This document shows, one piece after another, positions 11,315 through 53,651 of a stretch of 64,000 bases of DNA (the first letter of the stretch is position 1; the number at the start of each line of letters is the position of its first letter). The notes under the pieces were generated by a model, which searched no databases, was not told where the DNA came from, and saw only the letters and a list, made by a program, of their open reading frames with translations. The position numbers and the translations under genes are program-made. Source of the stretch: Bacteroidetes bacterium GWF2_38_335 (GTDB lineage: Bacteria; Bacteroidota; Bacteroidia; Bacteroidales; GWF2-38-335); the NCBI GenBank assembly GCA_001769535.1, contig MEOH01000002.1, positions 186,001 to 250,000 of the forward strand, read 5' to 3'.

Positions 11315-13561
11315 TTATTTTTCCTCAAAAACCAGCCGGTCTCCGCGAAATGAGACAAAACGGTAAATATTGGTATTATAAAGTTTATTTCGCTCATCCG
11401 AATATTCCCTGTATTTAAACTCCGAGCCGCTGCCATGCATGGGCAATACCATGGTCGGACTGAATCGGGAAACCAGATAATCGTTACCTTTTTTCAGAAC
11501 TGTTTTGTCTCTGAAATTGCATCCGGAAATGGGAACAAAGGCAATATCAATTTTTTTGTATTTTTCAGCAAGAAAATCGATCTCTGAAGTAAAATCCTTG
11601 TCCTCATCCTGAAACCTGTTGGCATGATCACCCGGGTGGTAAATTACCAGTCCGTCCACTTCAATCATAAACCCTTCGCCGCTGTCGGTCGAAGCAATAG
11701 CAGTTATTTTTACGCCATCAATGTTTTTTTCCTCATGAGGGGCAATATATGTACAATTGGCGTTCTGAGAGTTATTGAAGCCCAAAACATAGTTGATATT
11801 TCCTATGGTTTTTGTCCAGCCAAAAATCCTTTGATCAAAGTGATCCTGATGGTTGTGTGACGCAATAGCTGTGACTTTTAGTCCGGCAATTTCTTCCGGA
11901 TTGATAAACCCGTTATTCAGGCAGAGTTTATCAGGATTAACATTGTTATCCCAGTAGTCAATGACCAGCAGATGGTTTTTTGTTTTTATGGCCCAACCAC
12001 TGTGGTTCAAATACCAGACAACCGCTTCCTTTTCTTTCAGTTCCTTTTTTAGTAAACCTGTATTTTCAGGTGCTTTTTCATTTGCAGTTCCCTTTGTCAT
12101 CAGGACTTTTTTGATTTCGTCGTTTCCATAATACGCTGCATAATATTCCGGCATATGACCTTCGGCATCTTTAGCGGAAGAATTGGCTCCATTTTCGGTC
12201 AGAATAGTAAATATCTCCCCAAATCCATAAATAGCGGCATAATGTAGGGCTGTTTTACCAGAATTGTCGGTAAGGTTAACATCTGCCTTATATTCAATCA
12301 TTTTTTTCAGCATTCCGGGTTTCTTTCTCTGAACAGTCCTGATAAGTGCTGTTTCGCCCAATTTGTTTTTAGCATTGATATTGCATTTGTTTTTGACAAG
12401 AATATCAATTGTTTCGAGACTGTCGCCCCATGTGGCATTGTGGAGGGCGGTATTCCCCTCGAGGTCGGTTTTATTGACATCAGCCCCTTTGGATATAAGA
12501 TATTTTGCAATGGAAGGGTTCCGGCTAGCAGCAGCCATTAAGGGAGTTCTTCCACTATTTGTACATGATTCCCTTTTACAAATACCGGGTTCAGTTTTCG
12601 CTCCATTTTCAACCAAAAGCTTTACAATATCTAATCTTCCGAAAGCAGATGCCATGATCAGCGGGTTGTTGCCATAATCGTCAAAAGCGTTAATATCACT
12701 GCCTTTTTCAATGAGAAGTTTAACGAGTTCGGGACTGCCGCTTTCAGCTGCCATGATGAGCCATGTGGAATGATCATTCAGCTGCTGATTGATATCTGCA
12801 CCTTTATCCAGAAGATATTTGGTCACATCGTAAAATCCATAATTGATGGGCGTCATCAGAAGACAGGACCCATCCTTTGTTTTGGAATTTACATCAACCC
12901 CTTTTTCCTCAACCAGATATTTTACAATATCCAGTTTGTTTGAAGAAGCTGCCCAAAAGACAGGAGATATTCCGTCGTTATCGAGTGCGTTGTATTCAAG
13001 ACCCTTTGACTCCAGATGTTTGAAAAGCTCAATATTTCCGCCGTTGGCAGCCCAATGGATAAGTTTCGAGCCATCGTCAGATTTTTCCATGATATCCATG
13101 CCCTTGTCAACACAATATCTGAAAATATCCATATTGCCACCCATGCATGCATACTGCAGGCAATTCTGACCTCTGGAGTTTTTTGCTGCCATGTTAGCCC
13201 CTTTTTCACTGAGTGTTCTGAATGATTCCAGATCACCCTTCCAGGCAGCGTAATGCAACGGGGTATTCCCGTAATTATTGGCTGCATTGACATTAGCCCC
13301 TTTTTTAATCAGGAATTTTACAAGATCGGTGTGACCGTCGGCTGCAGCAATAATAAGCGGAGTTGAGCCGCGCGGACTTCGTGCCTCCAGCAATGCAGGA
13401 TCTTTGTTAATGAGCTCCATTACCTGTTCAATACGCGCGCTGTCGAGCAGTCGGAACAGATCAGCTCCGGGCACGGGAGACTGGGAAAAAGATGATTTGA
13501 TAAAAATTAAGAGAAGTGCAAAAGTTAAAGTTTGAGAACTGAGGAGTTTCTTACATTTCAT
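11315..13561 (-). CDS. Exported ankyrin-repeat / metallo-beta-lactamase fusion protein
   Basis: A signal peptide (1-26, ending SSFSQ) is followed by about 13 ankyrin repeats of 33 residues (about 65-500; for example NTPLHYAAWKGDLESF, GKTALHYAAIYGFGEIF). Residues about 525-748 form an MBL-fold domain of the UlaG-like type. It has the zinc motif H-N-H-Q-D-H in IASHNHQDHFDQ, a further Asp in IYHPGDHANRF and a histidine in VLPMHGSGSEF. The zinc ligands look intact, so hydrolase activity is plausible, but the substrate is unknown. No T9SS sorting domain is present, so a periplasmic location is likely. Ankyrin arrays usually bind proteins; here they may present partners to the hydrolase. It is monocistronic. 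Confidence 0.85.
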   Translation of the reverse strand: MKCKKLLSSQTLTFALLLIFIKSSFSQSPVPGADLFRLLDSARIEQVMELINKDPALLEARSPRGSTPLIIAAADGHTDLVKFLIKKGANVNAANNYGNTPLHYAAWKGDLESFRTLSEKGANMAAKNSRGQNCLQYACMGGNMDIFRYCVDKGMDIMEKSDDGSKLIHWAANGGNIELFKHLESKGLEYNALDNDGISPVFWAASSNKLDIVKYLVEEKGVDVNSKTKDGSCLLMTPINYGFYDVTKYLLDKGADINQQLNDHSTWLIMAAESGSPELVKLLIEKGSDINAFDDYGNNPLIMASAFGRLDIVKLLVENGAKTEPGICKRESCTNSGRTPLMAAASRNPSIAKYLISKGADVNKTDLEGNTALHNATWGDSLETIDILVKNKCNINAKNKLGETALIRTVQRKKPGMLKKMIEYKADVNLTDNSGKTALHYAAIYGFGEIFTILTENGANSSAKDAEGHMPEYYAAYYGNDEIKKVLMTKGTANEKAPENTGLLKKELKEKEAVVWYLNHSGWAIKTKNHLLVIDYWDNNVNPDKLCLNNGFINPEEIAGLKVTAIASHNHQDHFDQRIFGWTKTIGNINYVLGFNNSQNANCTYIAPHEEKNIDGVKITAIASTDSGEGFMIEVDGLVIYHPGDHANRFQDEDKDFTSEIDFLAEKYKKIDIAFVPISGCNFRDKTVLKKGNDYLVSRFSPTMVLPMHGSGSEFKYREYSDERNKLYNTNIYRFVSFRGDRLVFEEK

Positions 13562-14357: not shown

Positions 14358-16172
14358 CTACGGCGTGTGCACAAATTTAACCACCCGGGAGCCATTTTTA
14401 CCCGTGATTTTGACCAGATAAATACCTTTTTCAAATCCGCTCACATCAATCGTTTTTGTTTGAGTGCAAAAGCTTCCTTTATAAACAACATTTCCGGTAA
14501 TTCCGTATATCACCAATTCGCAGGACTCTGAACTTTCCTGACTGACATTCAATAAATCCTGCGCCGGATTTGGCCAGATCATGAATTTCCTTTGTGGAAA
14601 TAATGTTTCCTCCACCCCGCTGAACTCCATGGTATTGATCTCATAGGTTGGCAATCCGCCGTTGGGCATACCCTCATAAGTATATCCTGCCATGCTTACT
14701 TTATATGGATTGGCCATCCTGATTTTCACCTTAACATCCGAAGCAAACATGTCAAAAGTCGTATCTCGGTATGGAATGGACACGTACATGGCATTTCGGT
14801 AGATATCTCTTTTTGAAGTTGTTGTATTGAGCATAAACCGTTCGAATAATTTTCTTCCCCCATCATATTTATACATCCGTTTTGCCGTATCTGATTCAAT
14901 TTCATTATGCCCGAACACATAAATGTAATGCATTCCCCCAAGCCACGGGTATCCTGCTGTCTGGCCCGAGCTTTCAAACAATTCAGAGTACAGCTCGCCA
15001 GTGGGATTCCACATCATATCATTGCCATTTTGTCCGGAATACCATGAATTCTCGCCAAAAGCCATGTTCAACCGTTCGCCGGTTTCTATGTCAATGGCGT
15101 AGCCAGGAAACCAGCTCATACCCCGCGAACCGATATAGTTTGAAAGATTTTCGTTAATGAGGGTATCTTCATCTGCTCCCACATTCATTGCATTCCCGTC
15201 TTTATCCACCGAGGGCGCATTTCTCAGATCAAATTTCCATACACCGGACGGACCGGGTTGTGTATCATCCATTTCACCATCGCCGTCGGTATCAATGGAA
15301 TCATCCTCGCATAATTCGATGACCGGACAACGTGTCCATTTGCTGCTGTCGCCGGTAATTATGATGTCAATGCTGGCCGGACGCTGTTTGGCCAGTGTTT
15401 GCAGACTCCAGCTTGAATTATTATAGCACGGGCCATATTTATCGTGGGATGCATATTTATAGAGCGACCATTTGCCCTCGCAAATATTTTCATAATATTC
15501 TTCCGGATCGCCCTTATCATTCACCCGCGGATAATTTTCATCTATCTGGGTTCCGCACCTGATCCAGTTTGAAACATATTGAGCAATATCGGTATCTTCA
15601 AAAAATTTCAGCCAGGGTTTTGACGGGTCTGAATACTCGATGACCGAACCCAAAACACCACCATTTTCCACTTCCAAATCTTCGGGATCAGGAAAATCAA
15701 CCCAGTTTATCGTAATAGATATTCCCCATTCGGGAATCAACTGCTCATTATGAAAATTGATCCAGTGATCGGCATAAATCGTATCACCGCCGGGCTGATA
15801 CACATACCATTTCGAACTTTTGCCGTCGTTGGGTTTTATTACACCCGTCGGAAAATAAGTGACACTGTAAAAAACCAGGTAAAACTTACCCTGTACCAGA
15901 TTGAGCGGGTCAATAACCTTGACGGATATGGGTCCATACCCCGGTTTGTAATCGGGTGTGAAATCGCGCCATGGAAAGCCAGCCATGATGGTGTCAATTG
16001 ACTCGGCCGACAGCTCGAGGATATTTTCGCCACCGCTGTAACCTGCGAGTTGCGTAATGGCCGGCTGGTCGCCATAGTTGATGCCATCAAGCCAGTCCTG
16101 CAGGTTTTTTGACTGACTGTGGGCAATCACTGTTTGGGTGATTATTGCTATGAATAATATTGTTTTTTTCAT
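14358..16172 (-). CDS. Large T9SS cargo protein, unknown function
   Basis: ATG 16172 is chosen because the sequence from there is a signal peptide (MKKTILFIAIITQTVIAHSQ); the in-frame extension to 16241 reads through the upstream hairpin repeat. The mature region has acidic, Trp/Tyr-rich segments and a calcium-binding-like DTDGDGEMDD stretch near residue 300. Residues about 530-604 are a T9SS type A sorting domain (MIWPNPAQDLLNVSQ, GFEKGIYLVKITGKNGSRVV). The protein is not closely related to the four large paralogs upstream but follows them at 79 bp spacing in the same orientation, so it may be the last gene of that operon. Function is unknown. Confidence 0.75.
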   Translation of the reverse strand: MKKTILFIAIITQTVIAHSQSKNLQDWLDGINYGDQPAITQLAGYSGGENILELSAESIDTIMAGFPWRDFTPDYKPGYGPISVKVIDPLNLVQGKFYLVFYSVTYFPTGVIKPNDGKSSKWYVYQPGGDTIYADHWINFHNEQLIPEWGISITINWVDFPDPEDLEVENGGVLGSVIEYSDPSKPWLKFFEDTDIAQYVSNWIRCGTQIDENYPRVNDKGDPEEYYENICEGKWSLYKYASHDKYGPCYNNSSWSLQTLAKQRPASIDIIITGDSSKWTRCPVIELCEDDSIDTDGDGEMDDTQPGPSGVWKFDLRNAPSVDKDGNAMNVGADEDTLINENLSNYIGSRGMSWFPGYAIDIETGERLNMAFGENSWYSGQNGNDMMWNPTGELYSELFESSGQTAGYPWLGGMHYIYVFGHNEIESDTAKRMYKYDGGRKLFERFMLNTTTSKRDIYRNAMYVSIPYRDTTFDMFASDVKVKIRMANPYKVSMAGYTYEGMPNGGLPTYEINTMEFSGVEETLFPQRKFMIWPNPAQDLLNVSQESSESCELVIYGITGNVVYKGSFCTQTKTIDVSGFEKGIYLVKITGKNGSRVVKFVHTP

Positions 16173-16190
16173 GGTATTTGTTTTTTGTTG

Positions 16191-16251
16191 CGCCATCAAA
16201 TATTTGTTAAAGGCAAATATTTGATGGCGGGGCAGACACAAGGTCTGCCCC
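16191..16251. repeat. Two adjacent intergenic hairpins
   Basis: The first hairpin has a 16-bp perfect stem (16191-16206 with 16214-16229, core CGCCATCAAATATTTG). The second is GGGGCAGAC/GTCTGCCCC (16229-16237 with 16243-16251) and touches the stop codon of the preceding minus-strand gene. The same arrangement with a different stem sequence occurs at 18683-18753. It could act as a terminator/attenuator or an mRNA-stabilising element between cargo genes. Confidence 0.7.
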
Positions 16252-18665
16252 TACCGTATTTTTACCAATTTGTATATTTTTTCAAATCCAATGTATTTTA
16301 TTTTTATCAGATAAACTCCGTTTATGTAACCGCTAACATCCAACACATTTTCCCTGCCGTTTGCTTTTCCTGAAAATACCTTTTCTCCCGACAACCTGTA
16401 AATGTCAATGGTGTAATTATCAATTTCATTGGTATTGAAATACACTTTATCCCTTGCGGGGTTGGGCCAGAACATTACCGAGGGTTCGGCGGGGAATTCT
16501 GCGGCATCCGGATTGCTTTGCCATACCTTCACCTTTGTCATTCCGTACGATCGTGTGCTGGGCTTGTACGGCATTTTCTGTCCGCGCACACTGGTCAGGT
16601 CGGCTAGGTTGTATTTTGAAAACTCGTTGTGCGCATAGGCCACAGCCATGAAACAGTAATTTTTTCCTGTATCAATTGGCTCGCCGGTAAAGGCATCGGT
16701 TTTCATGCTGAAAGAACGTTTTAACCCGTCGTTTTCGGCATCAACAGCCAGATATGGATCATAATTATCTGAGGCAGGATTGTACCGGTGGTTGACCAGA
16801 TCGCCAATACCGTCTTTGATATCGCTCTGAAAAACACAGATAGCCTTTTCGGGATTTTGCAAATCGGCCACCGTAACATTGGTATCAACCACCTGAAAGA
16901 CCTGATATCCCTGAAAGCTGTAATAAGTATCGCAAAATTCCTGTGAAGTCAAACATTTAATCGTGGGCTCCTGCTTGTGAAAAGATTCAAGATAGTTATT
17001 GGACTCCGGCCTGTTAAACAAAAGCACGATCAGTTCGCTGGTGGTCTGAATCAGTTTGAGTTCCGGCGCATCCGGACCATCAATCAACCTGAAGCAGTTA
17101 TTGAAATATGATTGGGCTATGTCGTCGGCGCGGCGCACCTCCCTCACTGATTGCACACTATCACCATTTTGTGCTTGATCCCAAACAGCAGTAAATTTAA
17201 AATCAATTACTTCTCCGGGTGCCATTGACCCCGGGCCAGAGCTTAAAATAAAGTCCCTGTAATAGCCGTCGCCATGATTTGCCGATTCTTCGGACCATGG
17301 AAGCATTGGTATTCCGCCTTGCCCCCAACCACATGGATCAGAATCACCGGGCACATTGAAATTGGTTGGCACATCAGTTGATCCCCAGCTGGGATGTCCA
17401 CCTCCTCCATACATCAGATGCGTATTATCTTTCCAAATGCACTGCATACTTTTATAGGCCTGAGCAGCATTATAAGGAAAATCCATTACTCCACTCGGAT
17501 CATCAAAAACCCAATTAAAATTTGTAGCACCATATTTTTCATTATCAGCAATTCCGTCGCCAAAATTCAAACCGTTTATTCCGGCATTACAAGCAGCAAC
17601 ATCATCTATCCCATTTGGTTCTATTAACAGCCCTTCTAAAATATCAAATCCAATTGCAGGGGTTGGAGGACTTGAGCTATTGTAAACACTTCCATAACCT
17701 TCATCTGTACCATGACTTTTATATAAAAGAGCCATTGCCCGTTGAACATCCATGGCAACATAATTATTCAAATTTTGCCCCTGCATACCCACATTAAACA
17801 ATCCGGCATAAACTCCATGGTACGACTCAGTTGAACGGTTAATGATCTGATAATAGTAAAAAGTACAATTATTCAATTCATCAAAGCTTCTATATGCAAA
17901 TGCCTGTTGCCTTATTTCAATTTTAAAGCCCTCTCCACCATAACCTTCATGTACGTTTCCATTGTCATTATATACAAACCAAAGGTTCTGATCTCCCCAT
18001 AACCGCGATTGTTCGCTTTCAGGAGAATAACTGCACACAAGCGATTCATCCAGATCATAATAAGGATAATCCCCATCGTTTGGATTGTAATTGCCATCCT
18101 CATTATTATCAAAGAAAGGAGCCAGATAATAATCATATCCATCAGCCATATTGCTATGTGCAGGCCAGTTTAATATGATATCCGGAATCTCATATCCGGG
18201 AAAATTTCTAACTTTTTCTTCTTCACTTGAATTAAACCAGTTTCTGAAAGTTGCAATTTCACTTTTATAGGTTGTATATATTTTATCGTATTCCTCGCAA
18301 TTATCCACATCAGTTGTCCCCTGCATTTCAGGATCGGACCTTAACGGCCCCGGCCAAAAGTTGTCACCATCAAACCTGTAATGTATTCCTGAAAATTTTA
18401 CATTTCCATCATAATCAAGTCCCCCGATCCAAAATGAGCCAAAACCTGTATTTTGATAACCAGATCCTTTTGGTGCCTCATAACATCTTTCATTGGTTGA
18501 ATAATCGAACCACATGTCAGATGCATTAAATATCAAAGCCCTGATATTGTTTATTTCAAGATAAGCTGATGAGGTAGGCATAGAGCACCCCGCAGTAACC
18601 CCTTTCTGTGCATTTCCAATTTCACAGAAAACCAAAAACAACAATATGATGGTATAAATTTTCAT
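16251..18665 (-). CDS. Large T9SS cargo, paralog 1 of the four-gene family
   Basis: ATG 18665 begins a signal peptide (MKIYTIILLFLVFCEIGNA); the longer frame to 18743 reads through hairpin repeats. The mature protein begins with the family signature GVTAGCSMPTSSAYLEINN. About residues 160-185 hold APFFDNNEDGNYNPNDGDYP, resembling a calcium-binding Asp-rich loop. Residues about 245-265 hold NNCTFYYYQIINRST. The last 75 residues form a T9SS sorting domain (SVMFWPNPARDKVYFN). The family is widespread in Bacteroidota cargo, but I know no function. From RRADDIAQ to the end (about 295 residues) it differs from the next paralog at only four positions, whereas the N-terminal half has diverged strongly. 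Confidence 0.8.
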   Translation of the reverse strand: MKIYTIILLFLVFCEIGNAQKGVTAGCSMPTSSAYLEINNIRALIFNASDMWFDYSTNERCYEAPKGSGYQNTGFGSFWIGGLDYDGNVKFSGIHYRFDGDNFWPGPLRSDPEMQGTTDVDNCEEYDKIYTTYKSEIATFRNWFNSSEEEKVRNFPGYEIPDIILNWPAHSNMADGYDYYLAPFFDNNEDGNYNPNDGDYPYYDLDESLVCSYSPESEQSRLWGDQNLWFVYNDNGNVHEGYGGEGFKIEIRQQAFAYRSFDELNNCTFYYYQIINRSTESYHGVYAGLFNVGMQGQNLNNYVAMDVQRAMALLYKSHGTDEGYGSVYNSSSPPTPAIGFDILEGLLIEPNGIDDVAACNAGINGLNFGDGIADNEKYGATNFNWVFDDPSGVMDFPYNAAQAYKSMQCIWKDNTHLMYGGGGHPSWGSTDVPTNFNVPGDSDPCGWGQGGIPMLPWSEESANHGDGYYRDFILSSGPGSMAPGEVIDFKFTAVWDQAQNGDSVQSVREVRRADDIAQSYFNNCFRLIDGPDAPELKLIQTTSELIVLLFNRPESNNYLESFHKQEPTIKCLTSQEFCDTYYSFQGYQVFQVVDTNVTVADLQNPEKAICVFQSDIKDGIGDLVNHRYNPASDNYDPYLAVDAENDGLKRSFSMKTDAFTGEPIDTGKNYCFMAVAYAHNEFSKYNLADLTSVRGQKMPYKPSTRSYGMTKVKVWQSNPDAAEFPAEPSVMFWPNPARDKVYFNTNEIDNYTIDIYRLSGEKVFSGKANGRENVLDVSGYINGVYLIKIKYIGFEKIYKLVKIR

Positions 18666-18682
18666 TTTTTTCTTTTTTCCTG

Positions 18683-18753
18683 CGCCATAAGATTTGCCAG
18701 AGGCAAATTTTATGGCGGGGCAGACACAAGGGGGCAGACACAAGGTCTGCCCC
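18683..18753. repeat. Intergenic hairpin pair, second copy
   Basis: The first stem pairs 18683-18698 with 18702-18717 (CGCCATAAGATTTGCC), with one wobble/mismatch. It shares the CGCCAT ends but not the inner stem of the copy at 16191. The second stem GGGGCAGAC/GTCTGCCCC pairs 18731-18739 with 18745-18753. Its left arm is duplicated in tandem starting at 18717. Different stem sequences with preserved pairing suggest that structure matters. Confidence 0.7.
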
Positions 18754-21167
18754 TACCGTATTTTTACCAATTTATATGTTTTTTCAAATCCAATGTATTT
18801 TATTTTTATCAGATAAATTCCGTTTATGTAACCGCTCACATCCAACACATTTTCCCTGCCGTTTGCTTTTCCTGAAAATACCTTTTCGCCTGATAACCTG
18901 TAAATGTCAATGGTATAATTATTAATCTCATTGGTATTGAAATAGACCTTATCTCTTGCGGGGTTGGGCCAGAACATTACCGAGGGTTCGGCGGGGAACT
19001 CTGCGGCATCCGGATTGCTTTGCCATACCTTCACCTTTGTCATTCCGTAAGACCGGGTGCTGGGTTTGTACGGCATTTTTTGTCCGCGCACACTGGTCAG
19101 GTCGGCTGGGTTGTATTTTGAAAACTCGTTATGCGCATAGGCCACAGCCATGAAGCAGTAATTTTTTCCTGTATCAATTGGCTCGCCGGTAAAGGCATCG
19201 GTTTTCATGCTGAAGGAACGTTTGAGACCGTCGTTTTCGGCATCAACAGCCAAATATGGATCATAATTATCTGAGGCAGGATTGTACCGGTGGTTTACCA
19301 GATCGCCAATCCCGTCTTTGATATCGCTCTGAAAAACGCAGATGGCCTTTTCGGGATTTTGCAAATCGGCCACCGTAACATTGGTATCAACCACCTGAAA
19401 GACCTGATATCCCTGAAAACTGTAATACGTATCGCAAAATTCCTGTGAAGTCAGACATTTAATGGTGGGCTCTTGTTTGTGAAAAGATTCAAGATAGTTA
19501 TTGGACTCCGGCCTGTTAAACAAAAGCACAATCAGCTCGCTGGTGGTCTGTATCAGTTTGAGTTCCGGTGCATCCGGACCATCAATCAACCTGAAGCAGT
19601 TGTTGAAATAGGACTGGGCTATGTCGTCGGCGCGGCGGAGTTCTTCCACCGAAGAATATGGGGTACCGGATAAAGCCCTATCCCAAATTGCTCCAAAGTG
19701 CACTGTTGCTATTGCACCGGGTTCTAACACTCCCGGACCATTTGAAATGACAAATCTTCTGTCATAAGGACTGTTATCACATGAATATTCGTCCCATGGT
19801 GGCATTGGAACACCTCCCTGCCCAAAACCGCAAGGATCGGAAGTCCCCGGAAACATAAAATCAGTAGGAATATCCGTTGAACCACCCGAGGGATGACCTG
19901 TTCCGCCATACATCATATGAGTATTGTCTTTCCATACACACCTCAAATAATTATATGTTTCCAAAGCAGTAGTTGGATCTTGTGTTGAGGGACTACCCTC
20001 ACCAGTTCCGTTAAAATATATGAAGCTTGTTAGACCATAGCGTTCATTGTCAACAATTCCATCGCCAAAATTCAATCCATTTATTCCATTATTGCAAGCA
20101 ACAACATCGTCAATGCCGTTATCAGGAATATATAAACCTGCCATTACATCAACACCAAAAGCCGGAGGGGGCGGGTCAGGTCCTCCATATCCATAAATAA
20201 CCCCTTCATCCACTGGCAGCCCGTTAAATAGAATTCCCAATCCTCTGCTTACATCTGATTCAAGGTAATCATCATAAGCGTACCCCATATCTGCATCACT
20301 CCAAAATCCCACATAAAAATCATGATAAGTATTCACCGACCTGTTTATTATCTGATAAGAATAAAATGTACAATTATTTATTTCATCCATTGTTCTGAAA
20401 GCATATGCTTGTGCACGAATTTCTATCTGAAGGGCTTCACCATCAAATTCTGAATGTGTATTGCCGTTATCATTGAAAACAAACCAAATGTTCTGGTCAC
20501 CGCGCAGACAAGAATTTTCAGTTTCAGGCGAATACCCACAGGGTAGTTCATTAATAAGATCATAATATGGATAATCACCATCAGCAGGGTTATATGTTCC
20601 ATCTTCATTGTTGTCAAAAAAAGGAGCCAGATAATAATCATATCCCTCTGCAATATTTCCATGAGCAGGCCAGTTTGTGATTATGTCCGGAATAGAATAT
20701 TCAGGAAAATTGCTTTCTCGTTCAGCAATTGAAGAATTAAACCAATTTCGGAAAGTCAGAATATCCTTTTTATAAGTCACATATTGTTTGTCATATTTGG
20801 CGCAGTTTTCCACATCTGTATTTCCCAAATTTTCTGTAGTAGACTTCAAATGTCCTGCAAAAAAATCGCAGCCATTTGATCGATATCTCACCCCCGAAAA
20901 TTTTAATTGTTCTGATTCATCAATACCCCCAATCCAAAGAGCACCAGCAAAAGAACAATGCTTCCCCGACCCCTTAGGTATTTCATACCTTGGACTGCCC
21001 TGTAAATCCCACCACATATCCCCACCATTGTGAATCAGCGTCCGCACATTGTTCACTTCAAGAAAAGCAGAAGATGTGGGAGCGCTGCACCCGGCTGTAA
21101 TCCCTTTCTGCGGTTTGGCCGGAATGAAAAGCAATAATAACAGTAATAAACTAAGTGCAATTTTCAT
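18753..21167 (-). CDS. Large T9SS cargo, paralog 2
   Basis: The 804-residue protein has a Leu-rich signal peptide (1-19, ending FIPAKP) and the family signature GITAGCSAPTSSAFLEVNN. Further family features are GDMWWDLQGSPRYEIPKGSG, the Asp-rich FFDNNEDGTYNPADGDYPY near residue 170, GDQNIWFVFNDNGNTH, and a T9SS sorting domain in the last 75 residues (FWPNPARDKVYFNTNEINNY). The 3' half is nearly identical to paralog 1 while the 5' half is closer in style to paralogs 3 and 4 (WWD, SGKH). It is probably the first gene of a minus-strand operon with paralog 1 and the 14358 cargo gene. Confidence 0.8.
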   Translation of the reverse strand: MKIALSLLLLLLLFIPAKPQKGITAGCSAPTSSAFLEVNNVRTLIHNGGDMWWDLQGSPRYEIPKGSGKHCSFAGALWIGGIDESEQLKFSGVRYRSNGCDFFAGHLKSTTENLGNTDVENCAKYDKQYVTYKKDILTFRNWFNSSIAERESNFPEYSIPDIITNWPAHGNIAEGYDYYLAPFFDNNEDGTYNPADGDYPYYDLINELPCGYSPETENSCLRGDQNIWFVFNDNGNTHSEFDGEALQIEIRAQAYAFRTMDEINNCTFYSYQIINRSVNTYHDFYVGFWSDADMGYAYDDYLESDVSRGLGILFNGLPVDEGVIYGYGGPDPPPPAFGVDVMAGLYIPDNGIDDVVACNNGINGLNFGDGIVDNERYGLTSFIYFNGTGEGSPSTQDPTTALETYNYLRCVWKDNTHMMYGGTGHPSGGSTDIPTDFMFPGTSDPCGFGQGGVPMPPWDEYSCDNSPYDRRFVISNGPGVLEPGAIATVHFGAIWDRALSGTPYSSVEELRRADDIAQSYFNNCFRLIDGPDAPELKLIQTTSELIVLLFNRPESNNYLESFHKQEPTIKCLTSQEFCDTYYSFQGYQVFQVVDTNVTVADLQNPEKAICVFQSDIKDGIGDLVNHRYNPASDNYDPYLAVDAENDGLKRSFSMKTDAFTGEPIDTGKNYCFMAVAYAHNEFSKYNPADLTSVRGQKMPYKPSTRSYGMTKVKVWQSNPDAAEFPAEPSVMFWPNPARDKVYFNTNEINNYTIDIYRLSGEKVFSGKANGRENVLDVSGYINGIYLIKIKYIGFEKTYKLVKIR

Positions 21168-21193: not shown

Positions 21194-21283
21194 AGAAATT
21201 TTTGTAATTATTGCATTATTAATTTATTAACGGCTGTTCACAGATTGTTTTCGGTAGGTTTTCAGTCATGAGCGGCTTTTTTT

Positions 21284-21341
21284 GTCGGAGCGCGACTCCA
21301 AGTCGTGTTAGTCGGAGTGCGACTCCAAGTCGCGCCCCGAC
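21284..21341. repeat. Dispersed GTCGGAGTGCGACTCC repeat, copy 1
   Basis: Two tandem units of GTCGGAG(T/C)GCGACTCCAAGTCG, each containing the self-complementary GGAGTGCGACTCC core, end with CGCCCCGAC. Related copies lie at 24015-24074 and 27673-27732, always next to a large cargo gene. Confidence 0.7.
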
Positions 21342-21363
21342 TAAGAAAAGTCGCACCCCAACC

Positions 21364-21403
21364 CAAAAAACAAATCCGCCCCACTGCTGCAGTGAAAGGC
21401 GGA
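21364..21403 (-). terminator. Terminator after paralog 3
   Basis: On the minus strand TCCGCC pairs with GGCGGA (21398-21403 with 21375-21380) around an inner CACTGC/GCAGTG hairpin, and is followed by TTTGTTTTTT. An exact copy lies 3679 bp away, downstream of paralog 4. Confidence 0.65.
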
Positions 21404-21436
21404 CTGTCTTCTATCATTGGCAATAAGGCGGGACTT

Positions 21437-23839
21437 TTATTGCCTTACAATTTTGTGTACCTCTTTCTTTCCGTTTTTCTCTAAATTCAGATAATATATT
21501 CCTTTTGAAAAATCACTCATATCAATGGTATTCAATCCCTCACGAACCACAAAATTCCTTAACTCTTTCCCGTGGATGTCATAGATGGTCAGATTAAGAT
21601 TCAATGAACTTTCTGACTTTACATACACCACATCGGTTACCGGATTGGGATATACCGAAATCTTTATCTCAACGGGCAATTCTTCGGCATATACGGCATC
21701 CGGATTGGTTTCATATACCTTAACATGATTCATGCCCGGCGTACGGCGGCTGGGCTTGTATGGCCTGCGTTGACCGTATAAGGTACCCGGATCAGTGGGA
21801 TTGTAATGCAGATAATCATTATGTGCATAGGCAATGGCCATATAGTAATAATTAACCTCCGGATCAAGTGCCAGTCCGGTAAACAAATCAGTGCCGGCAG
21901 TAAACACATGACCGATGCCCTCATCTGCCGCATCAACCATCAGCTTCGGCTCAGAAACTCCGGTTTCCATATTGTTAGAATAGTTGTACAGATCGCCAAT
22001 TCCATCGGCAAGGTCGCACTGATAAACCAGCCGGGCTTTGGTTTCATCGGTCAGTTCAGACACCCTGACGTCCAGTCCGGTTACCTGATAAACCTGATAT
22101 CCCTGGAAAGTGTAGAATGAATCACAATCGGGTAAACCTTCAGGAATCAGCATGGTGTAATCCTTTTTATGATATCCTTCCAGATAATTATTTGAGTTGA
22201 TGGTATTGAACAGATTGAAAAGAAACTCTCCGGAAGCAGTTGTAATCTCCATTTCGGGGGCATCCGGACTATCAGTCACCCTGAAACAATTGTCGAAATA
22301 GACCTGGGCGAGATCATCAGCCCGATTGAGTTCGGCAACCGATGGGTAAGAATTTGTCTCTACTCCCCTTGCCCACACAACACCATAGGAAAAGTCCTCG
22401 ACCTGACCGGGTTCCATGGTAAAAGAACCGGATCCCAAAACTAACCTTCTGTCACCAGAAGTATTTTCAGTGGTGATTTCGTCCCATGCCGGCATTGGAG
22501 TACCGTTCTGGCCAAACCCGCAGGGATCGGATGTTCCGGGGAACATAAACTTAGTTTCAGTGGAAGTGGCAACAGGGTCTTCAAAATAGCCGCAACCTCC
22601 ATAAACAAGATGCGAAGCATCGGTCCAAATGGACTGCAGATACATATAATAATGATAGGCAGTCCCAGGGTCGCCGGTTTCAGGGTAAACCCCACCTGAA
22701 TTACTATAATACATACTTGAATTTAACCCTGACCTTTCATTATCAGCTATTCCATCTCCAAAATTCAGTCCGTTTACCGATTCATTGCACCCGGCAGCAT
22801 TATCAATTCCGTCATTGATCATGTACGGACCTTCAAAAAAATCAATTCCGACAGCCGGCGGATTATCTCCATAAGCTGTGGCAGCCCCAAGGTCGCCTCC
22901 AGCCTGATTGAAAAAGTAACCCATTCCTCGTTGAACATCAGTTCCGACAAAATCATCCCATGGTGATCCAAGGTCAGCATCAGCAAACATTCCTGCAACC
23001 ATCTGGGTATAGGTGTGTGTTGAACGGTTTATTACTTCGTATTTATAAAAAGTACAATTATTTACTTCGTCTTCAGTACTGAGAGCAAAGGCCTGAGCTC
23101 TGATTTCCAAACCTATGGCATCACCAAAAGTTTCGCCGTGCGTGTTCCCTTTGTCATTGAAAACCCACCAGATATTTTGATCGCCATATAACCTTGGAAA
23201 CCTGTCCTCGCGTGAAAATCCACAGGGAACAGTACCTGTCAGGTCATAATATGGATAATCTCCATCTTCGGGATTGTATGCCCCATCAAGATTATAATCG
23301 AAAAAAGGAGCAAGATAATAGTCATACCCTGCGGCCTGATCACCATTGCCGGGCCAGTTCAGAATGGAGGCCGGAATTTCATATCCGGGATATTCGGCTG
23401 CCTGGGTTTCGGGATCAGAGTTATACCAGTTCACAAAAGTTTCCACTTCATCCCTATAGGTGACAAAAAGCTGGTCGTAAGCACTGCACACATCGGGTGT
23501 TACTTCGGCAGAGGAATTGAGCGGTCCGGGCCAGAAATCCACTCCGCTCATCCTGTATCTCTGGGCAGCCACATGCAGGTTTCCCGAACCATCCAGTCCG
23601 CCAAACCACATAGCTCCAACAAACATTGAATGTTTACCCGATCCTTTGGGAACTTCATATTCCGGACTTCCTGACAGATCCCACCACATATCACCGCCCG
23701 AATGAATCATGGCCCTTACATTATTTATTTCGAGGAATGCTGAGGATGTTCCGGGAGTACAACCCGCCTTGACATCCTTCTGGCAAAATGCATAATTAAA
23801 TGCGTTTACCAGGATTAGGAAAAGGAAAAGTTTCTTCAT
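21437..23839 (-). CDS. Large T9SS cargo, paralog 3
   Basis: The 800-residue protein has a signal peptide (1-19, ending NYAFCQ), then KDVKAGCTPGTSSAFLEINN and GDMWWDLSGSPEYEVPKGSG. The Asp-rich loop YNLDGAYNPEDGDYPYYD is near residue 170, and DADLGSPWDDFVGTDVQRGM is near 295. The last 75 residues are a T9SS sorting domain (ISVYPNPVTDVVYVKSE, DFSKGIYYLNLEKNG). It is most similar to paralog 4, including the last codons and 3' flank. By family knowledge the protein is translocated by the T9SS and exposed or released. The catalytic or binding role is unknown. Confidence 0.8.
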   Translation of the reverse strand: MKKLFLFLILVNAFNYAFCQKDVKAGCTPGTSSAFLEINNVRAMIHSGGDMWWDLSGSPEYEVPKGSGKHSMFVGAMWFGGLDGSGNLHVAAQRYRMSGVDFWPGPLNSSAEVTPDVCSAYDQLFVTYRDEVETFVNWYNSDPETQAAEYPGYEIPASILNWPGNGDQAAGYDYYLAPFFDYNLDGAYNPEDGDYPYYDLTGTVPCGFSREDRFPRLYGDQNIWWVFNDKGNTHGETFGDAIGLEIRAQAFALSTEDEVNNCTFYKYEVINRSTHTYTQMVAGMFADADLGSPWDDFVGTDVQRGMGYFFNQAGGDLGAATAYGDNPPAVGIDFFEGPYMINDGIDNAAGCNESVNGLNFGDGIADNERSGLNSSMYYSNSGGVYPETGDPGTAYHYYMYLQSIWTDASHLVYGGCGYFEDPVATSTETKFMFPGTSDPCGFGQNGTPMPAWDEITTENTSGDRRLVLGSGSFTMEPGQVEDFSYGVVWARGVETNSYPSVAELNRADDLAQVYFDNCFRVTDSPDAPEMEITTASGEFLFNLFNTINSNNYLEGYHKKDYTMLIPEGLPDCDSFYTFQGYQVYQVTGLDVRVSELTDETKARLVYQCDLADGIGDLYNYSNNMETGVSEPKLMVDAADEGIGHVFTAGTDLFTGLALDPEVNYYYMAIAYAHNDYLHYNPTDPGTLYGQRRPYKPSRRTPGMNHVKVYETNPDAVYAEELPVEIKISVYPNPVTDVVYVKSESSLNLNLTIYDIHGKELRNFVVREGLNTIDMSDFSKGIYYLNLEKNGKKEVHKIVRQ

Positions 23840-24014
23840 AGCATGTTTTTCTTAAAGATACGTACAAAACCAAAAATTATGTTGACCAATTAACAAGTAC
23901 CATACTTCAGTTACCGAAAGGGGCTTTTTTATCTACTAACGGTCGCTCGCTCCACTCCGCTCACCCAAGTCTCCCGACTTGAGTGCTTTGCTTCCCGACT
24001 TGGGTGCTTTTTTA

Positions 24015-24074
24015 GTCGGAGTGCGACTCCAAGTCGTGCCCCGACTAAAAAAAAACTCCAAGTCGCGCCCCGAC
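24015..24074. repeat. Dispersed GTCGGAGTGCGACTCC repeat, copy 2
   Basis: This unit reads GTCGGAGTGCGACTCC followed by AAGTCGTGCCCCGAC and a second partial unit (ACTCCAAGTCGCGCCCCGAC). It is upstream of paralog 3. Confidence 0.7.
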
Positions 24075-24965: not shown

Positions 24966-25036
24966 TAACTATTTTGTCACACATCACCCATAACCCATAA
25001 CCCATAACTTATAACCCATAACTCATAACCCAAAAC
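24966..25036. repeat. 7-bp tandem repeats (CCCATAA)n
   Basis: About nine imperfect units of CCCATAA/CTCATAA. This is the complement of the (GTTATGA/G)n tracts at 53457-53612 and near 61295. Confidence 0.75.
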
Positions 25037-25042
25037 CCAACC

Positions 25043-25082
25043 CAAAAAACAAATCCGCCCCACTGCTGCAGTGAAAGGCGGA
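25043..25082 (-). terminator. Terminator after paralog 4
   Basis: Identical to the terminator at 21364-21403: nested TCCGCC/GGCGGA and CACTGC/GCAGTG stems followed on the minus strand by TTTGTTTTTT. It lies inside the 105-bp identical block 25039-25143. Confidence 0.65.
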
Positions 25083-25115
25083 CTGTCTTCTATCATTGGC
25101 AATAAGGCGGGACTT

Positions 25116-27521
25116 TTATTGCCTTACAATTTTGTGTACCTCTGACTTGCTGTTTTGTTCGATCTTCAGATAATAAACCCCGGGAGCAAAATCTGAAAAA
25201 TCTACAGATAAACTTCCTTCAACCGATTCAACTTTTCGCATCATTTTTCCGCGACTGTTGTATATTGATATGGTTAATGGATAATCCTCAATTGTATTAA
25301 TATAAACTATTCCATTTGTTGGATTTGGATATACATTGGCATTTAATCCAGCTATCTCTGCAATTGAATTTACTGCATTCATATTTGTCTGGTAAACTCT
25401 TACATAATTCAGTCCTACCGACCTGCGACTTGGTTTGTACGGTTTTTTCTGTCCGGTGAAAGTAGCAGGATCAGCCGGATTATAATGCAGGTAATCATTA
25501 TATGCATAGGCAATGGCCATGTAAAAATAATTGTTTCCTGTATCCAGCGGTTCACCGGTAAATTTATCTTCATTTGCCGTGAAATAATGATCAATCCCGG
25601 TGTTTGCAGCAGTAACCATTAAAGTGGGTGTGCTTGTTCCGGAACTAATATCAACAATATAATTGATCAGATCTTCAATTGCATCATTCACATCGCACTG
25701 AAACACCAAACGTGCTTTTGTATCATCATTCAACTCATTAACGGTTATGCTTGTATCGGTAACCTGATATACCTGATATCCCTGAAAAGTAAAAAATGAA
25801 TCGCATTCTGTTGTTCCCACGGGAGCAGAAATTGTATAATCAAGTTTGTGATACAATTCCAGATAATTATTTGAAGCTGCAGTATTAAATAAATTGAACT
25901 GAAATTCACCCGGAGCAGTGGTGATGGTCATATCCGGGGCATCCGGACCATCAATCAACCTGAAACAGTTATCAAAATATGCCTGAGCAATATCATCGGC
26001 ACGCATGAGTTCGGCAAGAGATGCCAGTGAATCGCCGGTCTCTGCCCTTGCCCAAACCGCTGCGTATGAAATATCATCTACTTGGCCGGGTTCCATCCTG
26101 AATTCACCGGTAGCCATCAGAATTCTTCTGTCATAGGGCACATTGCTTTCAGTGATTTCATCCCACTGAGGCATAGGTATGCCGCCCTGACCAAAGCCGC
26201 ATGGATCTGAAATTCCTGGGAAAATAATATCAGATTGTGTTGTTGTGGAACCGGCATTTGAATAATGTCCGGTTCCCCCGTAAAACAAAGGAGAACCATC
26301 TTTCCAAATTGACTGCAAGTACTGATAGTATTCAAGCGCCGAGGAAGGATCCTGAGTTGCCGGATTCCCTTCACCCATATTATTTATAAATATGCAATGA
26401 TTTAAACCAGACCTTTCATTATCAATAATTCCGTCATCAAAATTTAAACCTGTAATTGAAGAATTGCAACCTGTAAGGTCATCCATTCCATTATTTTCAA
26501 GATATGGCCCTTCAAAAAAGTCAATCCCAATGACAGGTGGTCTTTCACCATAACTGTAAACAACCCCCTCATCAACAGCTCTTCCATTGTAGAAATAACC
26601 CAAACCTCTTTGTACATCACAACCTCCGTAATCATCATAACTATAACCCAAATCACCATCAGTCCAGATACCAGCATACATTTGAGTATAAGTAGTTGAA
26701 GAACGGTTAATAATCTGATATGAGTAAAAAGTGCAATTATTCAGTTCATCGGTTGTTGAAAAAGCAAAAGCCTGCGCCCTGATTTCAAGTCCGATTGAAT
26801 TTCCTCCACTTTCAGTATGATCATTCCCTTTATCATTATACACCCACCAGATATTTTGATCACCATACAAGCGCGGCACCCTGTTCTCCCTTGAAAAACC
26901 ACATGGAACATCATCGTTTAAATCATAATATGGATAATCACCGTCATTCGGATTATAATTACCATCCTGATTGTTATCAAAAAAAGGAGCCAGATAATAA
27001 TCATAACCCGATGCCACATCGCCATGAGCAGGCCAATTAATAATTGATTCAGGAATCACATAATCGGGATATTCTGATGCCTGAGTTGCAGGGTCAGAAT
27101 TAAACCAATCATTGAAAGTTTCTACTTCCTCCCTGAAGGTGACAAAAAGATAATCGTATGATGAGCATACATCCGGACTGACCTCTGCATCTAGAGTGGT
27201 TAATGGTCCGGGCCAATAATCAACTCCTTCGCTGCGGTAACGCTGAGCAGCCAGATGAAGATTGCCTGATTCATCAATTCCTCCGAACCATAAAGATCCT
27301 GCAAACAAGGAGTGTTTTCCAGAGCCTTTAGGAACTTCATACTGCGCATTTCCTGAAAGATCCCACCACATATCACCGCCTGAATGAATCAGTGCCCTTA
27401 CATTATTTATTTCGAGGAATGCTGAGGATGTTCCGGGGGTACAACCTGCTTTGACATCCTTTTGGCAATATGTAATATTATATACAAAAGCCATGGTAAT
27501 AAGTAAAAGTAGATTTTTCAT
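25116..27521 (-). CDS. Large T9SS cargo, paralog 4
   Basis: The 801-residue protein has a signal peptide (1-19, ending NITYCQ), then KDVKAGCTPGTSSAFLEINN and DMWWDLSGNAQYEVPKGSGK. Other family features are FFDNNQDGNYNPNDGDYPYY near residue 170, GDQNIWWVYNDKGNDH, and DGDLGYSYDDYGGCDVQRGL near 290. The last 70 residues are a T9SS sorting domain (ANVYPNPTNGIVYINTIE, DFAPGVYYLKIEQNS). It has an intact TTG-N21-TAGTTTTG promoter, unlike paralog 3. Function is unknown. Conserved Asp-rich loops suggest calcium-stabilised repeats. Confidence 0.8.
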   Translation of the reverse strand: MKNLLLLITMAFVYNITYCQKDVKAGCTPGTSSAFLEINNVRALIHSGGDMWWDLSGNAQYEVPKGSGKHSLFAGSLWFGGIDESGNLHLAAQRYRSEGVDYWPGPLTTLDAEVSPDVCSSYDYLFVTFREEVETFNDWFNSDPATQASEYPDYVIPESIINWPAHGDVASGYDYYLAPFFDNNQDGNYNPNDGDYPYYDLNDDVPCGFSRENRVPRLYGDQNIWWVYNDKGNDHTESGGNSIGLEIRAQAFAFSTTDELNNCTFYSYQIINRSSTTYTQMYAGIWTDGDLGYSYDDYGGCDVQRGLGYFYNGRAVDEGVVYSYGERPPVIGIDFFEGPYLENNGMDDLTGCNSSITGLNFDDGIIDNERSGLNHCIFINNMGEGNPATQDPSSALEYYQYLQSIWKDGSPLFYGGTGHYSNAGSTTTQSDIIFPGISDPCGFGQGGIPMPQWDEITESNVPYDRRILMATGEFRMEPGQVDDISYAAVWARAETGDSLASLAELMRADDIAQAYFDNCFRLIDGPDAPDMTITTAPGEFQFNLFNTAASNNYLELYHKLDYTISAPVGTTECDSFFTFQGYQVYQVTDTSITVNELNDDTKARLVFQCDVNDAIEDLINYIVDISSGTSTPTLMVTAANTGIDHYFTANEDKFTGEPLDTGNNYFYMAIAYAYNDYLHYNPADPATFTGQKKPYKPSRRSVGLNYVRVYQTNMNAVNSIAEIAGLNANVYPNPTNGIVYINTIEDYPLTISIYNSRGKMMRKVESVEGSLSVDFSDFAPGVYYLKIEQNSKSEVHKIVRQ

Positions 27522-27544
27522 AGACTGTTTTTTTTATATACGTT

Positions 27545-27576
27545 CAAAACTAAAAATTATGTTGACAAATTAACAA
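27545..27576 (-). promoter_or_regulatory. Promoter for paralog 4
   Basis: On the minus strand TTG (27574-27576), 21 bp, then TAGTTTTG (27545-27552), 23 bp before the start codon. The equivalent site of paralog 3 has one substitution in the -7 element. Confidence 0.5.
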
Positions 27577-27672
27577 TTACCATACTTCAGTTACCGAAAG
27601 GGACTTTTTTATCTACTAACGGTCGCTCGCTCCGCTCACCCAAGTCTCCCGACTTGGGTGCTTTGCTTAATA

Positions 27673-27732
27673 GTCGGAGTGCGACTCCAAGTCGCACCCC
27701 GACTAAAAAAAACTCCAAGTCTCGCCCCGACT
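27673..27732. repeat. Dispersed GTCGGAGTGCGACTCC repeat, copy 3
   Basis: Same two-part structure as the copy at 24015-24074, upstream of paralog 4. Confidence 0.7.
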
Positions 27733-28043
27733 AAAAAACCCGCCGAACAATTGCTTCAACCATCCGGCGGGGTTCAATCTATCATTGATTGTGGTGGGGC
27801 ATTTTATGCGCATTCTCTTGCGGCGTACCTTTCTTTAGGTAAATATACGCCCTGTTTCAGGATTTTAAGTCGGCCAATTTGCAGACAACCGGAATGGCTT
27901 TCCGAATAACCGGAATTGGGACTTGATTTGCTTATATCTTGGATATTTTTATTATTTCATAATTCGAAATTACATTTTATTGTTTCGGTGCGCTGCACAT
28001 AGCCGTCAGGTTAAGGTTTTTCAATATCAAATATCGTTAAAAT

Positions 28044-52554: not shown

Positions 52555-53454
52555 ATGAAAAATATATTTAAAAACATATTTTTATTGATTGCAATGATTT
52601 TGATTAATCAAAATGTCATTGCACAGCAAACTGATTCCATTAACAAAAAAAGACTGTATACCATTGTTGCAGCCGAATCAGGAGCATTCTGCATTTCATT
52701 GACAGGTTTATATGCAGCATGGTATAAAGGTTATCCCTCCTCCTCGTTTCACTGGTTTGACGATTCGGATGAGTGGCTGCAGATGGATAAATGCGGACAT
52801 GCATACTCATCCTATTACTTTAACACAATATTGACTGAAGGTTTTCGATGGACAGGCATGAGCAATAAAAAATCTGTTTTGTGGGGCAGCGGACTGGCTT
52901 TTCTGTTTATCGGTTCCATAGAAGTATTTGACGGGTTTTCAGCCAAATGGGGGGCTTCGTGGACTGACCTGACGGCCAATACCTCGGGCATTGCGCTGTA
53001 CGGAGTTCAGCAATATTTTTGGGAAGATCAGCGGATAAAACTGAAATATTCATTTCGAAAATCATCGTATGCTAAATATCGTCCGGATGCCCTGGGAAAC
53101 AATTTTGCCGAATATCTGATCAAAGACTACAATGGACAAACCCAGTGGCTGTCGGTCAACCTCAAGTCATTTGCAAAAAACAGTAACATTCCAAAATGGC
53201 TGAACATCGCAATTGGCTATGGCGGCGACGGCATGGTAAGCGGTGAAGAATTCGTTGATCCTGAAGTTTATCCCGGACCCTATTTTGAAAGATACAGGCA
53301 GTTTTATATTTCTCCGGATATTGACCTGAGTCGCATTGATACCAAATCGAAATTCTGGAATACCTGTCTGAAAGTGGTCAATTGTTTGAAGGTGCCGTTG
53401 CCGGCGGTGGAGGTTGGTGAGGGGAAGGTTAAGGGGATTTGGTTGGGGTTTTGA
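52555..53454 (+). CDS. DUF2279 family protein
   Basis: The 299-residue protein has a signal peptide (1-23, ending QNVIAQ). The DUF2279 signature is WLQMDKCGHAYSSYYFNTIL, LWGSGLAFLFIGSIEVFDGF and ASWTDLTANTSG, as in YfiM-like predicted periplasmic or outer-membrane-associated proteins. A hydrophobic stretch near 105-120 could be a membrane contact. The C-terminus has alternating strands that may be barrel-like. Function is unknown. TTG-N17-TATGTTTA upstream is a near-consensus promoter. Confidence 0.8.
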   Translation: MKNIFKNIFLLIAMILINQNVIAQQTDSINKKRLYTIVAAESGAFCISLTGLYAAWYKGYPSSSFHWFDDSDEWLQMDKCGHAYSSYYFNTILTEGFRWTGMSNKKSVLWGSGLAFLFIGSIEVFDGFSAKWGASWTDLTANTSGIALYGVQQYFWEDQRIKLKYSFRKSSYAKYRPDALGNNFAEYLIKDYNGQTQWLSVNLKSFAKNSNIPKWLNIAIGYGGDGMVSGEEFVDPEVYPGPYFERYRQFYISPDIDLSRIDTKSKFWNTCLKVVNCLKVPLPAVEVGEGKVKGIWLGF

Positions 53455-53456
53455 TT

Positions 53457-53612
53457 AGTTATGAGTGATGAGTTATGAGTTATGAGTTATGAGTTATGGG
53501 TTATGGGTTATGGGTTATGAATTATGGGTTATAGGTTATAGGTTATAGATTATGAATTATGAATTATGAGTTATGAGTTATGAGTTATGAGATGTGAGAT
53601 GTGAGATGTGAG
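53457..53612. repeat. 7-bp tandem repeat tract (GTTATGA/GTTATGG)n
   Basis: About twenty imperfect heptamers, changing to GTTATAG and GATGTGA near the end. It lies in the gap between DUF2279 and the next plus-strand gene. The complementary version is at 24966-25036 and a short one starts at about 61295. Confidence 0.85.
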
Positions 53613-53643
53613 GTATTTTATAGCTTTTCAGATGTTTATAGAG

Positions 53644-53651
53644 TATATTTG
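53644..53651 (+). promoter_or_regulatory. -7 element for the 53687 gene
   Basis: TATATTTG matches TAnnTTTG, 35 bp before the ATG; no clear TTG at -33. Confidence 0.4.

Follow-up and report, generated by a model that had tools for sequence, protein, structure and literature searches.

In Helicobacter pylori, the 3' segments of babA/babB and homA/homB are in concerted evolution while their 5' segments diverge, a pattern that has been ascribed to intragenomic gene conversion (PMC2795765, PMC3960876). In Porphyromonas gingivalis, the gingipains and HagA, which are exported by the T9SS, have undergone rearrangement of domains and exchange of alleles, and their near-identical repeats break short-read contigs within genes (PMC5266723). 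The locus analysed here, centred on two neighbouring genes that we call g1 and g2, resembles both systems. Like babA/babB and homA/homB, g1 and g2 are surface-protein paralogues whose 3' parts have been homogenised within a genome while the 5' parts diverge. However, the Helicobacter proteins are outer-membrane beta-barrel proteins compared across strains, whereas the g1/g2 family is T9SS-exported, belongs to Bacteroidota, has no sequence kinship to them and is represented by one genome per species. With the gingipains and HagA it shares the status of T9SS cargo, a conserved C-terminal domain and exchanged domains, but the gingipain catalytic and adhesin domains belong to other families, and exchange there takes place mostly between strains and among adhesin repeats. 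The T9SS type A sorting domain (TIGR04183 / PF18962), which g0-g4 all carry, indicates the export route and not the function of the head. This kind of event is already known; what is new is the protein family and the recurring boundary.

Results

The window, that is, the whole 64,000-nucleotide stretch of DNA that was analysed, carries the following genes of the family:

14358..16173, minus strand: g0, module B of the long family form, here a gene in its own right that has a T9SS tail (Por_Secre_tail)
16251..18665, minus strand: g1, 804-aa T9SS cargo (Por_Secre_tail), start set by alignment to the paralogues; head 17136-18665, tail 16251-17135
18753..21167, minus strand: g2, 804-aa paralogue of g1; head 19638-21167, tail 18753-19637
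21437..23839, minus strand: g3, 800-aa paralogue whose tail has not been homogenised with those of g1/g2
25116..27521, minus strand: g4, 801-aa paralogue whose tail has not been homogenised with those of g1/g2

Thus g1-g4 form a tandem series of four minus-strand paralogues, each ~800 residues long and carrying a T9SS type A sorting domain. Por_Secre_tail scores above its curated cut-off in all of g0-g4 (34.8 bits in g2 and 32.6 in g1, cut-off 23). The open reading frame of g1 (16251-18743) has an upstream TTG; the start at 18665 was chosen, which matches the paralogues in the alignment. In Pfam and NCBIfam, no family covers the heads of g1 and g2. A protein of ~1440 residues on another contig of the same genome, L048, matches the heads and the first part of the tails of the array genes over its residues 34 to ~750, and g0 is 51-56% identical to residues 753-1382 of this 1437-aa protein. 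The long form (~1440 aa) is common across the order, and the window thus holds this form split and amplified: module A is present four times and module B once, and every copy has its own sorting domain. The C-terminal domain of L048 (L048:6309-10622, G000:C10) and of its orthologues L047, L109 and L049 is weakly PorZ-like (27-38 bits), and two of the four also match PorU, of the T9SS attachment complex, at 14-16 bits, all of these scores lying far under the cut-offs. These long forms also have a conserved C-terminal end, GEKxLKWFGxxRPxDL. The long form may be a T9SS-associated surface protein instead of ordinary cargo.

The pair itself is carried by one genome only. The closest relative found in the contig scan of the genome collection was 42% identical, the collections searched contained no orthologous g1/g2 pair, and the family of the source genome has only two genomes in the collection. 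A plasmid origin gave no match.

The tract shared by g1 and g2 comprises the following parts:

16229..17135, minus strand: homogenised block in g1, covering the C-terminal ~294 codons, the stop region and the downstream hairpin
18731..19637, minus strand: homogenised block in g2
16229..16251, minus strand: hairpin GGGGCAGACCTTGTGTCTGCCCC downstream of g1
18731-18753: identical GGGGCAGACCTTGTGTCTGCCCC copy downstream of g2
16188..16228, minus strand: 3' extension of the tract past g1, through a second hairpin to ~15 bp before the next gene's start codon
about 18681-18730: counterpart of this extension beyond g2

The two blocks align over 907 bp with no indels and 44 mismatches (95.1% identical). 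Identity per 60 bp is 0.90-0.98 within the block; in the ~60 bp next to 17135/19637 it drops to 0.68, then to 0.50, and left of 16200 it is down to 0.23-0.38. From RRADD onward, Nei-Gojobori counts give 39 silent and 5 non-silent differences (pS 0.213, dS 0.25, dN 0.007), and 290 of 294 residues are identical, whereas the heads are saturated (pS 0.74) with 283 of 508 residues identical. The sequence-only reading of this DNA had described colinear, indel-free blocks whose proteins differ at about four of 295 residues, and both descriptions agree with these counts; its term "almost identical" suits the protein but not the DNA, where 21% of silent sites differ. It had named an equally low silent divergence in the 5' halves as evidence against exchange, and the halves proved to differ greatly (heads pS 0.74, tails 0.21). 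Because about 20% of silent sites but almost no residues have changed since the event, both tails are functional and under strong purifying selection.

The top segment of silent identity starts at about codon 523 and reaches the end of the gene, with a score of 121.9 compared with at most 48.4 in 5000 shuffles, a test that assumes codons to be exchangeable; chance is excluded as the source of the shared tract (0/5000 shuffles reach the score). The 44 differences, of which 37 are third-position changes, are evenly spread, with at most 75 bp between neighbours (P 0.69), and this even spread fits one tract of one age. None of the other five pairs in the array has a tract like that of g1/g2; in g3/g4 there is a weak tract, which spans codons 26-63 (p about 0.02-0.03 without correction). 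As a separate observation, g3 and g4 have flanks that are 89-91% identical around diverged middles, namely the 3' end plus downstream DNA (21357-21514 vs 25036-25193) and upstream noncoding DNA (23848-23957 vs 27528-27637); these may stem either from a further exchange, weaker than that of g1/g2, or from conservation of regulatory DNA.

A likelihood change-point places the switch between head and tail at codon 511 (support 501-524), in agreement with the sharp boundary that had been noted at the RRADD codons. At the other end, the homology passes the stop codon through GGGGCAGACCTTGTGTCTGCCCC, so that the stop region and downstream hairpin belong to the block as had been claimed, and it continues with indels for a further ~40-50 bp, via the second hairpin, nearly to the next start codon. 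Since noncoding DNA after the stop codon is included, protein constraint cannot explain the tract. A repeat found throughout the genome was rejected as the explanation of the 3' boundary, since GGGGCAGACCTTGTGTCTGCCCC occurs at these two sites only in the 5.27-Mb genome.

An AlphaFold2 model of g2, built from 15 sequences and of moderate confidence (mean pLDDT 66.9), predicts a short hydrophobic helix at the N terminus (residues 2-13; the signal peptide was judged by inspection only), a beta-rich head to about residue 500, one long helix at 505-524, and then another beta-rich domain followed by the sorting domain. The change-point at 511 sits inside this predicted helix, which joins head and tail. 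At that model confidence and at about 11% identity, the head with its helix (residues 26-527) aligns to 9ju0 (Z 17.7, rmsd 3.5, 251 residues) and to 5npf (Z 17.6 over 271 residues). These structural matches of the head are N-terminal domains of the GH94/GH116 supersandwich type, from carbohydrate phosphorylases and GH116 glucosidases, and the catalytic barrel is absent from g2, going by length and order only. For the modelled sorting domain, the structural matches are solved T9SS C-terminal domains (8qb1, Z 10.5). From the predicted fold, we infer that the head might bind glycans.

Head and tail trees, each built with 11 relatives, both place g1 and g2 as sisters, with the short form of the genus's other genome and g3/g4 as neighbours. 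The end branches of g1 and g2 are 0.93 and 0.22 in the head tree but 0.005 and 0 in the tail tree, which indicates that the duplication is old and that the tails were equalised later. The long orthologues of the genus's two genomes have a pS of 0.69, and the tail event, with a pS of 0.21, thus postdates the genus split, though it is not fresh. To call it "recent", as had been done, is too strong without qualification, given a dS of 0.25 and ~39 silent changes since the event. Identity of the tail to g4, L045 and L048 is 0.51, 0.51 and 0.40, near the values predicted from the g2 head and above those predicted from the g1 head, which weakly suggests that g2 may have been the donor and g1 the recipient. 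The idea that the g1 head was imported from a different lineage is not supported, as no match closer than g2 (56%) was found in 198 genomes of the order, although unsampled donors are possible.

General conservation of the tail was rejected: g1/g2 and g3/g4 differ as much in their tails as in their heads, or more. The tails of g3 and g4 are 41-44% identical in residues to those of g1/g2 over the whole C part, and the orthologous long proteins of the genus are 82% conserved in the head vs 77% in the tail. The earlier picture of variable heads on a fixed tail cassette therefore holds for the g1/g2 pair and for pairs in other genomes, but not array-wide, because g3 and g4 have tails of their own.

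The same tests were applied to ~40 pairs, each within one genome, from elsewhere in the order. Saturated heads with a homogenised 3' segment were found in eight within-genome pairs from five families, the window pair included; the set consists of draft genomes, several tracts end at contig breaks, and genomes of the same family are not independent. In g2 numbering, the changes lie as follows:

G232: residue 499 (support 498-509)
G310: residue 511 (support 509-517)
G023: residue 527 (support 507-531)
G086: residue 587
G374: residue 640
G286: residue 746
G090: residue 747

The switch falls at the linker helix in two families, that of the window and that of G232, G310 and G023. In the family f23, of G023, G232, G310 and G374, the head and tail trees conflict (AU test). 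A single clade of the G023 heads L078 and L079 was rejected (p 6.5e-66), yet their tails, 95-96% identical over a short comparable stretch only, are grouped with support 80/84. Similarly, L096+L113 of G374 was rejected for the heads at 2.9e-5 while the tails are grouped (support 96/95), and the head grouping L097+L113 was rejected by the tail data at 0.0011. In G023 and G374, closeness within the genome beats that between orthologues in the tract, but not in the flank (AU tests). Homogenised tails also occur between copies on separate contigs, and shorter internal tracts were found in G023, G047, G040 and G374. In several of these genomes, different heads run into contig ends at one and the same residue (748 in G310, 679 in G374), which is what near-identical tails would cause if they defeated assembly. 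The pairs kept as negative controls, a tandem one in G085 and others in G065 and G069, have no step between head and tail.

Discussion

Recombination that copies the tail but spares the head explains both g1/g2 and the recurrent pairs. We consider it very probable that this took the form of gene conversion in the tails of old tandem duplicates. By this account, g1 and g2 arose long ago by tandem duplication of a gene for a T9SS-secreted surface protein, and their heads diverged first, to silent-site saturation. Approximately 950 bp would then have been copied between the adjacent copies via homologous recombination, one gene overwriting the other, and the copied stretch would have run from the linker helix at codon 511 across the next domain and the T9SS sorting domain, past the stop codon and over most of the intergenic hairpins. 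The likely outcome would be an exported, surface-anchored tail common to the pair, together with two heads of separate binding specificities. The head might have been spared because its exchange is selected against when heads have separate functions, or because divergence blocks strand exchange; the data fit either.

Gene conversion or unequal exchange had both been proposed in the sequence-only reading, and intragenomic exchange of the C-terminal part is borne out, whereas unequal exchange needs two events. Unequal crossing-over of sister arrays at the linker helix could have produced a chimera of g1 head and g2 tail, after which the original g1 would have been deleted. The genes are in tandem, two such rounds would yield the same product, and the tract resembles a duplicated unit in that it holds the intergenic hairpins and stops near the next start codon. 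However, a duplication would have to be followed by an exact second deletion, and the homogenisation of tails across contigs in other genomes is a less natural result of sister exchange in one array; we regard this route as unlikely. A greater departure would be a recent duplication of the whole gene, with fast divergence of the head by diversifying selection or targeted mutagenesis and a constrained tail. The branch of the g1 head is indeed ~4x that of g2 (0.93 vs 0.22), but silent sites in the heads are saturated (0.74), as in old paralogues, against 0.21 in the tail, protein selection does not shift silent sites so far, and the noncoding 3' flank is conserved as well. The silent-site step rejects this scenario, unless the mutation rate of the head were exceptional, and we judge it very improbable. 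An assembly or binning artefact is harder still to credit: both copies lie on one contig of a 29-contig assembly, and collapse would not produce as many as 44 evenly distributed mismatches, of which 37 are third-position changes.

Favoring tail gene conversion between old duplicates, we note that tail-restricted concerted evolution is hereby shown in a widespread, unnamed family of Bacteroidota surface proteins, and that the linker helix after the head provides a concrete, testable boundary. Because short-read assemblies break inside genes of the family, they probably lead to underestimates of both copy number and head repertoire. It would be tempting to generalise to an order-wide T9SS family that diversifies by repeatedly re-homogenising its tail while the supersandwich head is spared and the boundary stays fixed at the linker helix, that is, to a head display maintained by conversion; we hold this extension to be rather doubtful.

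Additional observations

A repeated hairpin unit (TTAGTCGGAGTGCGACTCCAAGTCG..., family D6) lies by the array genes at 21281-21349, 24012-24053 and 27670-27739. At 11315-13561, on the minus strand, a metallo-beta-lactamase-fold domain is fused to ankyrin repeats. Farther along the window, positions 53430-53644 contain a degenerate array of GTTATGA-like heptamers, an inverted counterpart of which is found at 24970-25055, just 3' of g4 and upstream of 25.1 kb.
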